From the NCBI GenBank assembly GCA_945905815.1, contig CAMDQH010000013.1:1-55654 (forward strand): a stretch of 55,654 nt of DNA, given 5' to 3'. Of the stretch, positions 48,267-50,879 are shown piece by piece. The notes under the pieces were generated by a model. The model was not told the origin of the DNA and ran no database searches. It saw only the letters and a list, made by a program, of their open reading frames with translations. This DNA is from Bacteriovorax stolpii (lineage in GTDB: Bacteria; Bdellovibrionota; Bacteriovoracia; Bacteriovoracales; Bacteriovoracaceae). Numbering within the stretch: position 1 is the first letter of the stretch; each line of letters starts with the position of its first letter. Position numbers and translations under genes: made by a program.

Positions 48267-48752
48267 ATGATCTTCGCATTTTTCTTTGTCCCTCTTTTTG
48301 CTTTTTCCAGTATCGTTCAAGACGACGTTTCTACTACCGATAAAACCAGATTCGCTTTTACAACTGTCTGCCAAAAAATGGTTTCTCATGAGAGTCCGCT
48401 GATTGATGTCGTTTCAGGCACTGAACTGGAATGCATGGGCAAGAAAGTTGATGTAGGGGCTTTCTGCGATAAAGAAATGGCCGCTGATCCTTATTATCTT
48501 AGGGCCTATGTTGATCGTGCAACCAAAGAAGTGGTCTGCCATAGTGGGAAGAAAGTGTTATTCAAATACCAATGTGTGAAATTAACAGACCGCAAACTTT
48601 GTAAATCAACAGCGAAAGCAAGCTGTGAAGAAATGAAACTGAATCTGGCCAAGCGATTGGATATTGTTCATTCGTCGTTTACGAAAAATGAGAAGGGCAT
48701 TAAGGAACTGAATTGTTATTTTGAATCTTTGCCTTTGAAAGATAAGCTTTAA
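48267..48752 (+). CDS. Small secreted Cys-containing protein
   Basis: 161 residues, signal peptide FAFFFVPLFAFSS at the start and about nine Cys in the mature part (VCQKM, LECMGKK, AFCDKEM, VVCHSG, QCVKL, LCKST, SCEEM, LNCYF), suggesting disulphide bonds. No family recognised. No Shine-Dalgarno; a promoter box ends six bases before the ATG, so it may be leaderless. Confidence 0.65.
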   Translation: MIFAFFFVPLFAFSSIVQDDVSTTDKTRFAFTTVCQKMVSHESPLIDVVSGTELECMGKKVDVGAFCDKEMAADPYYLRAYVDRATKEVVCHSGKKVLFKYQCVKLTDRKLCKSTAKASCEEMKLNLAKRLDIVHSSFTKNEKGIKELNCYFESLPLKDKL

Positions 48753-48847
48753 AAGCTCCCTCTTTTGCAAAATCATCCGGTAATAATCTTTAAGTATAGT
48801 GTCAAACTCTCAAACATTATGAAGCCTTAGCTAAAAGTTAATTGGCC

Positions 48848-48885
48848 CCATTAGTGTATATACCCTCCCTGGAGGTCACTAATGG
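48848..48885 (+). promoter_or_regulatory. Inverted repeat sequestering the ribosome binding site and start codon
   Basis: CCATTAGTG (48848-48856) and CACTAATGG (48877-48885) are perfect inverted repeats; the second arm contains the ATG of the next gene (48882). Inside lies CCTCC/GGAGG, where GGAGG (48871-48875) is the Shine-Dalgarno. The mRNA would fold the start site shut, or the palindrome is a protein-binding operator. Confidence 0.55.
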
Positions 48886-49409
48886 AAACTCAATTGCAAT
48901 CTTGTTACTTCACGAAAAAAGGTCCATCACTCGTTACGCTTTTTGGCTATGCCACCAAGAGTGTGCCAGGGCTTGAAATCAATGGTCTTGGAAAATATGG
49001 TAAGGCCATCAAAGAGAAAATTGTTTTTGTCACTCGCTCGAGACAGCTTCAAATTCCGCTAAAGCGTTTTGTTTTGAATGTGGAAATCACCGATGATCTG
49101 GGAGATCTTGAAGGCTCTTCAGTTAAATGGCTGGAGTATCCACTTTTACTTCATTACTGGTATCTTGCAGGGTTATTACCGATTTCAAAGCTGGATAATT
49201 GTCTGGCGATAGGTTCACTGACTCCCAATGGAGAAGTGGTGGAGCCGATTAATTCTTCGGTTATGGCCCTGTGTGAAGAACATGAGCTTCACTTGATTTC
49301 ATCCAGTGACGTTGAGACCCCGAATGGAGTGATTGATGGGAAAGACTTGTTTGGTTCGATAGCGGAATTGCATTTTATGACTAACAATCCGACAGCAGTG
49401 ATGGCTTGA
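48882..49409 (+). CDS. Orphan ComM/ChlI N-terminal (S5-like) domain protein
   Basis: 175 residues that align with the N-terminal domain of ComM/YifB Mg-chelatase-like proteins: LVTLFGYATKSVPGLEINGLGK, LKRFVLNVEITDDLGDLEGSS, LDNCLAIGSLTPNGEVVEPI. The AAA+ ATPase that normally follows is missing, and the frame ends cleanly with TGA, so it is a stand-alone domain. ComM acts in natural transformation in other bacteria; the role of the isolated domain is unknown. The Shine-Dalgarno GGAGG and start are inside a hairpin. Confidence 0.72.
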   Translation: METQLQSCYFTKKGPSLVTLFGYATKSVPGLEINGLGKYGKAIKEKIVFVTRSRQLQIPLKRFVLNVEITDDLGDLEGSSVKWLEYPLLLHYWYLAGLLPISKLDNCLAIGSLTPNGEVVEPINSSVMALCEEHELHLISSSDVETPNGVIDGKDLFGSIAELHFMTNNPTAVMA

Positions 49410-49452: not shown

Positions 49453-49683
49453 GTGCCAACTGTATTCATCATTAATGGAGTAAGATTTTACTTTTATTCT
49501 CGAGAAGAGACTAGAATGCACATCCATGTGGCTTTCCAAGGTAGAGAATCTAAAATTTGGCTTGATACATTTGACGTTGCCTATAATCATGGATTTAAGC
49601 TGCGCGAAATGAGAAGAATTTTAATAATTGTGAGGAAACATGAAAAAATACTCAAAAAAGCGTGGAACTCGCATTTCGGATGA
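49453..49683 (+). CDS. DUF4160 domain protein
   Basis: 76 residues starting at GTG, with the family pattern MPTVFIINGVRFYFYS, then MHIHVAF, SKIWLD and the C-terminal LKKAWNSHFG. DUF4160 proteins occur in toxin-antitoxin-like pairs, with function unproven. AAGGATAGGG precedes the start. Its 3' end overlaps the next gene by 44 bases, so the two are translated together. Confidence 0.85.
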   Translation: MPTVFIINGVRFYFYSREETRMHIHVAFQGRESKIWLDTFDVAYNHGFKLREMRRILIIVRKHEKILKKAWNSHFG

Positions 49684-49912
49684 GGAAGTTAGCAAGGCAA
49701 TTGAAAAAGCCCTCAATGCCCCAAAACGCGACGTTAAAATGCGAGTGAATACCTTTATTGATCTCGATATCTATGAAGCATTGAATGATGAGGCGGACCG
49801 AACGGGACAAAAGTATCAGACGCTACTTAATAAATACCTAAGAGCGGCCGTCTTAAAAGAAGTAAGCGAATCTGATATTAAGGCCATTAAGATTGCTCTT
49901 GGTGCTAAATAG
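49640..49912 (+). CDS. Ribbon-helix-helix (BrnA/CopG-like) DNA-binding protein
   Basis: 90 residues: a basic N terminus (KKYSKKRGTRISDEE), a central RHH pattern (RVNTFIDLDIYEALNDEA) and helix DRTGQKYQTLLNKYL, the shape of BrnA and other CopG-type antitoxins. Likely represses its own operon. Overlaps DUF4160 by 44 bases; together they look like a type II toxin-antitoxin or a two-gene regulator. The stop overlaps the convergent pfkA by eight bases. Confidence 0.8.
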   Translation: MKKYSKKRGTRISDEEVSKAIEKALNAPKRDVKMRVNTFIDLDIYEALNDEADRTGQKYQTLLNKYLRAAVLKEVSESDIKAIKIALGAK

Positions 49913-50879
49913 AAAGCGTCTCCGCCAATTTCTGATACTCCACAAAATTATGATCTGATTTTGTAATGCATTCACTCAACGGCGCCATTAAAACTTTTCC
50001 TGCTCTCACCACCGTGACAGTTGGAAAGTGACCATCAATTAATGTTTGCACGGCCATATTTCCCATCTGAGAAGCAACAAAGCGATCATTAGCAGACGGT
50101 GAACCACCACGTTGAATGTGACCCAAGATTGCCACGTGGGCCTCAAGGTGAAACAAATCTTTTAGCACATGCTGAATATCATAACTACGTCCAGCAGTTG
50201 GACCTTCGGCCACGATGATAATAGAAGAATCTTTTCCACGCGCCATACCCCGTTGAATATCGTCGGAGAGTTTTTGATGATTTACTTTTTCATGAGAGAG
50301 AAGAATATTTTCTGCACCTGTGCACACTCCGACTTTTAGTGCGATCGCGGAAGAGTTTCTTCCCATCACTTCAACCAAAAATGTACGAGCATGCGAGTGG
50401 GCCGTATCACGAATTCTATCGACAGCTTCGATACCCGTTTGAACGGCCGTATCAAAACCAATGGTGTATTCAGTCCCTGAAATGTCGTTATCAATAGTGC
50501 CGGGAATTCCAACCACTGGAAAACGATGCTCATCCCAAAGTGCTTTCGCTCCGTTAAAAGATCCATCTCCACCAATGATGATCAAGGCCTCGATACCTTG
50601 ATGTTTCATGATATCCACTGCTTTTGCGCGAAATTCTTTCTTCTGCCATTCAGCACATCGTGAAGTTTGAAGAATGGTTCCTCCACGCTGAATAATATTT
50701 CCTACACTAGAGAGATTCATCGGTTGAAACTCACCGCGCAGAAGACCTGCGTAGCCGCGCTTGATTCCGGTTACTTTAATTCCATTATAGATGGCGGTTC
50801 TCACTACAGCGCGAATGGCACAGTTCATTCCAGGTGCATCTCCGCCAGAGCATAGGATTCCAATGTGGGCAAAACTCAT
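49905..50879 (-). CDS. pfkA: 6-phosphofructokinase (ATP-dependent)
   Basis: Phosphorylates fructose-6-phosphate in glycolysis. 324 residues with the N-terminal GILCSGGDAPGMNC and the nucleotide motif GGDGS (103-107; the ATP-type sequence, not GGDDT of PPi enzymes), catalytic GTIDND and MGRNSS. AAGGA upstream of the ATG. Eleven bases after gpmI, so both glycolytic genes appear to be in one operon. Confidence 0.96.
   Translation of the reverse strand: MSFAHIGILCSGGDAPGMNCAIRAVVRTAIYNGIKVTGIKRGYAGLLRGEFQPMNLSSVGNIIQRGGTILQTSRCAEWQKKEFRAKAVDIMKHQGIEALIIIGGDGSFNGAKALWDEHRFPVVGIPGTIDNDISGTEYTIGFDTAVQTGIEAVDRIRDTAHSHARTFLVEVMGRNSSAIALKVGVCTGAENILLSHEKVNHQKLSDDIQRGMARGKDSSIIIVAEGPTAGRSYDIQHVLKDLFHLEAHVAILGHIQRGGSPSANDRFVASQMGNMAVQTLIDGHFPTVTVVRAGKVLMAPLSECITKSDHNFVEYQKLAETLSI

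Follow-up and report, generated by a model that had tools for sequence, protein, structure and literature searches.

The gene at 48882..49409 on the forward strand of the Bacteriovorax stolpii window, the window being the whole 55,654-nucleotide stretch that was analyzed, raises the question of why its translation signals are embedded in an inverted repeat, and when a ribosome would reach them. The repeat consists of a left outer arm CCATTAGTG (48848..48856, +) and a right outer arm CACTAATGG (48877..48885, +). These arms, recovered both by repeat search and by folding, are perfect over 9 nt and lie 20 nt apart, and the repeat described in an initial sequence-only reading is therefore real. 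The placement of the ATG (48882–48884) within the right outer arm, and of the Shine-Dalgarno sequence GGAGG (48871..48875, +) in the inner arm, was also confirmed. The inner pairing of CCTCC with GGAGG proposed in that reading forms in part: four pairs join CCTC (48864..48867, +) to GAGG (48872–48875) in the minimum free energy fold, but full pairing is impossible with a loop of 2 nt.

The hairpin and the gene that it precedes

RNA folding of positions 48840–48900 produced the nine outer pairs together with the CCTC/GAGG stem at −15.8 kcal/mol. Compared with dinucleotide shuffles, the z value reached only −1.83, with equal stability in 11 of 200 shuffles. Perfect stems of at least 9 bp overlapping the AUG were found in two of 388 genes of the genome that bear a Shine-Dalgarno sequence, with the target gene counted in, and nine-bp inverted repeats with spacers of 3–20 nt numbered 15 in the window compared to 3–8 in five simple shuffles. 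The predicted cost of opening the Shine-Dalgarno sequence and AUG in the window was 10.4 kcal/mol, a value reached by 12% of control genes with a Shine-Dalgarno sequence; controls here and below were drawn from ~0.8 Mb of the Bacteriovorax stolpii genome. Considered alone, the repeat in the window is moderately unusual but not decisive, and its significance comes from the comparative evidence.

The downstream gene had been viewed as an orphan, which proved incorrect: among the genomes compared, it is present in all 26 of the genus and in 117 of 129 of the Bacteriovoracaceae, relatives of the predatory Bdellovibrio, with related loci titled Bacteriovorax and Bacteriovoracaceae. The 175-amino acid product gave no match in Pfam, NCBIfam, or PDB sequence searches and was placed only by fold search. 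A confident structural model (pLDDT 87) matched best to the Lon-like domain of ComM (Foldseek E 1.7e-8; Z 15.0 over 165 residues), followed by BrxL, Lon, and RadA (Z 12.5 for RadA). Thus, the fold is common with the Lon-like domains of ComM and RadA (PDB 8rxd, 8rxs, and 8rxc; PMC11612176), which build the hexamer ring and contact DNA in those proteins (PMC11612176). The product differs from ComM and RadA in comprising the Lon-like domain alone without the ATPase part, in sharing 13–14% identity with them, and in lacking a Pfam match. Identification of the protein as a ComM helicase was rejected as both the AAA+ ATPase and the Mg-chelatase C domain are absent, leaving the Lon-like fold only. 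As the genome gave no match to PF13335, the Mg-chelatase C domain, it probably is without full ComM. A stand-alone Lon-like domain protein of the ComM/RadA type occurs in nearly every Bacteriovoracaceae genome, and full ComM seems to be missing from that of Bacteriovorax stolpii. Downstream, at 49453–49912, a DUF4160 gene overlaps a second gene, for which the match is weak and BrnA-antitoxin-like, in an arrangement that resembles a small toxin–antitoxin-type pair. The pair is located between the target gene and a convergent pfkA-like gene (49905–50879, minus strand), and the two overlap at their ends.

Pairing and letters among orthologues

The start region was compared in 86 orthologues, 27 in a set consisting of the genus plus close outgroups and 59 from outside the genus, each of which was folded over positions −45 to +12. 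The outer arms lack conservation of their letters. One outer pair is already lost in the nearest relative (95% protein identity), and conservation of the arms by letters was rejected with a T:C mismatch already evident in orthologue L002. The stems differ among orthologues, yet repeatedly cover the Shine-Dalgarno sequence and AUG in the predicted folds. Examples include TTTCTGTAGA/TCTATGGAAA in L005, an inner stem of 11 pairs in L009, a long stem in L017 in which GCACCTC is paired with GAGGTGC, and TTTGCATA/TATGCAAA in L025. The mean shuffle z value was −1.62 for the orthologues versus −0.26 for control genes.

Co-adaptation of the two sides of the hairpin was assessed in a half-swap test in which sequences were cut at position −14 and left halves were joined to right halves from other lineages. 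The chimeras all retain composition, Shine-Dalgarno sequence, and promoter motifs. In the genus-plus-outgroup set (20 clades), native combinations averaged −13.68 kcal/mol compared to −10.54 kcal/mol for swapped combinations, an advantage of 3.1 kcal/mol (p<5e-5). An independent, freshly fetched family set analyzed with settings fixed beforehand gave −10.45 and −8.30 kcal/mol, respectively (p<5e-5); the p-values of the test are approximate because it is not tree-aware. When the 86 orthologues were arranged in 68 groups by upstream similarity, the values were −11.4 (native) and −9.1 kcal/mol (swapped) with z −8.1, and the native pairing was better in 51 of the 68 groups. Displaced controls, of which there were two for the 20 clades, were null in both sets (p 0.30–0.91). 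For 387 other genes of the genome, the same procedure gave a mean of −0.28 ± 0.16 kcal/mol (49% lower), which is not a clear effect.

These data bear on whether the hairpin has any function. The repeat in the window might have arisen by chance, with the comparative signal an artefact of shared composition or of promoter constraints. The modest single-sequence z value and the unconserved outer-arm letters are compatible with this possibility, as is the behavior of the inner stem, for which the signal in individual sequences is weak (mean shuffle p 0.27) and the swap test gave p 0.46 in the first setting but p 0.0005 in another. However, composition, Shine-Dalgarno sequence, and promoter motifs are all preserved in the chimeras, the displaced controls were null, the independent set repeated the result, and ordinary genes lacked a clear effect, which together render a functionless hairpin improbable. 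A second possibility is a DNA operator, one of the options listed in the sequence-only reading; the dyad, overlapping the start site, would then be bound by a repressor or activator. The dyad does straddle the predicted start of transcription, where operators are often found. Nevertheless, a protein binding site would be expected to keep its letters, whereas here the letters vary and the pairing stays, and the paired sequence is largely Shine-Dalgarno sequence and start codon. As the arm letters change freely, an operator is considered very improbable. Instead, the comparison of orthologues provides good evidence for selection that maintains an RNA hairpin over the start region of the Lon-like-domain gene. 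Concealment of the Shine-Dalgarno sequence and ATG in an RNA hairpin, as first suggested from the window, is supported in predicted folds by the co-adapted halves, and conservation of the arms among relatives holds for the pairing but not for the 9-bp letters.

A promoter-like element overlapping the left arm

The left outer arm overlaps the spacer of a putative sigma-54-like −24/−12 promoter, TTGGCCCCATTAGTGTA (48842..48858, +), with the GG at 48844–48845 and a GT at 48856–48857; location of the left arm within this element is a feature of the genus. Among the 27 orthologues in the genus-plus-outgroup set, 23 carry the pattern GG-N10-GC/GT/GG at 21–27 nt 5′ of the ATG. GG-N10-GC/GT occurs in 21 and the form with GC in 15 of these 27 sequences, compared to 14% and 6% of controls, respectively. 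Misfits are L010, whose element is too close at 13 nt, L018, in which the element is at 32 nt with GT replacing GG, and L025 and L026 in which the promoter GG is absent. A consensus score of at least 14 within the allowed distance was obtained for 24 of the 27 orthologues versus 4.9% of control genes, using weights that were set by the authors after the motif had been spotted by eye. The match in the window is middling, with a score of 15.0 and GT rather than GC at −12. In an unsupervised spaced-dinucleotide scan, likewise run once the motif was known, TT-N15-GG came top among 4415 patterns, followed by GG-N10-GC. The genome encodes RpoN (PF04552, one match, E 1.5e-62) and activator-type proteins (PF00158, nine strong matches). 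The element resembles promoters of the RpoN class, for which the consensus is mrNrYTGGCACG-N4-TTGCWNNw (PMC2725144), in the 10-nt separation of its GG from G[C/T] and in its fixed distance from the gene, with RpoN encoded and an IHF-like sequence upstream in several relatives. It is unlike such promoters in that −12 is GT in the window, the GG is lost outside the genus, and no activator site was identified. A literature search for Bacteriovorax or Bdellovibrio in connection with sigma-54 produced nothing useful. Overall, these patterns suggest that a sigma-54 promoter is likely to be used in the genus.

A CTTA box (48826..48829, +), detected by unsupervised spaced-pattern scans and counts of IHF cores, is positioned 14 nt 5′ of the GG. 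The box belongs to an upstream element whose sequence in several relatives is TCAANNNNTTR, corresponding to the IHF core. At least 6 of 7 core positions were matched by 48% of genus-set sequences and by 41% of those from elsewhere in the family, compared to 16% of controls, and two HU/IHF-type proteins are encoded. The candidate IHF-like site is only partly supported, and the match in the window is poor. In orthologues from outside the genus, the −24 GG is missing (5% of 59 versus 14% of controls), and TTA-N24-TGC persists (14 of 59 versus 1% of controls). The corresponding family-wide motif in orthologues L106–L169, approximately AATTTCA-N4-YTTA-N23-TTTGCA, is situated ~10–60 nt 5′ of the start codon and is without the −24 GG. 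The promoter in the wider family may not be of the sigma-54 type because the GG is missing there while the hairpin persists; the family-wide motif could mark a different type of promoter, or else a variant of the sigma-54 type accompanied by an IHF-like site.

Retention of the hairpin throughout the family, even where the −24 GG is absent, and the extra conserved upstream box (CTTA or TTA-N24-TGC) also would be compatible with a different arrangement in which the hairpin belongs to the main mRNA, started further upstream, and acts as a switch regulated by a protein, ligand, small RNA, or temperature, with the −24/−12 motif being something else. However, the stems are too divergent between relatives for a visible shared ligand or protein site, and a search of the hairpin region in Rfam yielded no match and no known thermometer family. 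Thermosensing, which had been raised for the window, is not favored and has nothing in support: the opening cost drops smoothly in folds from 15.3 kcal/mol at 10°C to 8.3 kcal/mol at 50°C with no transition predicted. Moreover, a regulated switch leaves the fixed-distance GG-N10-G[CT] unexplained, and a scan of the window for sigma-70 promoters found sites in numbers no higher than in shuffles. This arrangement is judged unlikely, with perhaps a quarter of the weight.

A candidate lock on read-in RNA

The position of the promoter-like element suggests how the hairpin may act. Transcription is predicted to start at 48869..48871 (+), 12 nt after the −12 element with a tolerance of 2 nt. The usual 12-nt spacing places the start at ~48869, which is 2 nt 5′ of the Shine-Dalgarno sequence and within the inner loop. 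As the predicted start is in the loop, an mRNA initiated at this promoter would be without the left arm and could not form the hairpin. The median predicted cost of opening the Shine-Dalgarno sequence and AUG was 10.1 kcal/mol for the long RNA and 4.2 kcal/mol for the promoter-started RNA, compared to 6.05 kcal/mol for control genes; little sequestration was predicted in L010, L016, and L023. The sequence-only reading had regarded a transcript that begins inside the hairpin as evidence against the latter. Such a start is indeed predicted by the conserved promoter, but it alters the mechanism rather than removing a role for the hairpin, since the action of the hairpin would be confined to longer RNAs.

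Selection on the hairpin would imply that a longer RNA exists. A possible source of read-through RNA is the co-directional upstream gene (48267..48752, +), an open reading frame of 161 amino acids without a Pfam match whose C-terminal ELNCYFES also closes the upstream gene in many relatives. An open reading frame in the same direction is located upstream of the target gene at 25 of 27 loci, and a simple scan of the window and the 27 loci found no terminator-like site between the two genes. L013 and L015 are the sole orthologues that lack a co-directional upstream open reading frame, and in neither of them did the swap test clearly favor the native halves. This pattern is what protection from read-through would predict, in two cases only.

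The hairpin is therefore proposed as a translation lock on RNA that enters from upstream. In such RNA the Shine-Dalgarno sequence and AUG would be hidden by pairing with sequence that overlaps the −24/−12 promoter of the gene itself. RNA from that promoter would start in the loop just 5′ of the Shine-Dalgarno sequence, the left arm would be missing, and the ribosome site would be open. The protein would be made only upon firing of the dedicated promoter, which in the genus probably involves RpoN and an activator. Hairpins of this kind enclose the ribosome binding sites of the phage T4 late genes I-TevI, e, soc, and segB, and mobE of phage Aeh1 (reviewed in PMC2988022). In T4 the structure forms only on RNA from upstream promoters, whereas RNA from a nearby or internal promoter lacks the left arm and is translated (PMC2988022). 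The Bacteriovorax locus is similar in that the hairpin is predicted to hide the Shine-Dalgarno sequence and AUG in RNA begun upstream. The sigma-54-like element, which loses its −24 GG outside the genus, would place the start of the gene's own transcript in the loop. The locus is dissimilar in that the gene is chromosomal and bacterial, the promoter is sigma-54-like rather than a phage late promoter, the start is a predicted one, and the pairing is retained across the whole family while the letters turn over. The insertion sequences IS10, IS50, and IS200 are protected from outside transcription because read-in RNA forms a structure in which the start of the transposase gene is concealed, and their own promoters generate RNA without this structure. 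Unlike these elements, the target locus has no mobile element, terminal inverted repeats, or transposase. A lock of the T4 type, in which read-in RNA would be poorly translated and RNA from the gene's own promoter would be free, is assigned an even chance of being correct. The broader proposition, held tentatively and at somewhat less than even confidence, is of a family of chromosomal genes in which the promoter from which the RNA derives licenses translation, with an RpoN-type promoter inside the hairpin at the ribosome binding site and family-wide selection on pairing rather than on letters.

Hairpins that silence read-in RNA are already known in phage T4 and insertion sequences. If the proposed lock is correct, a family-wide chromosomal case would mean that bacteria license the translation of their own genes through the position of transcript initiation. 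In the Bacteriovoracaceae, the gene licensed in this way would encode a Lon-like domain that stands alone and has relatives among the helicases of DNA branch migration. The half-swap test also offers a simple search for such locks where turnover is too fast for ordinary covariation.
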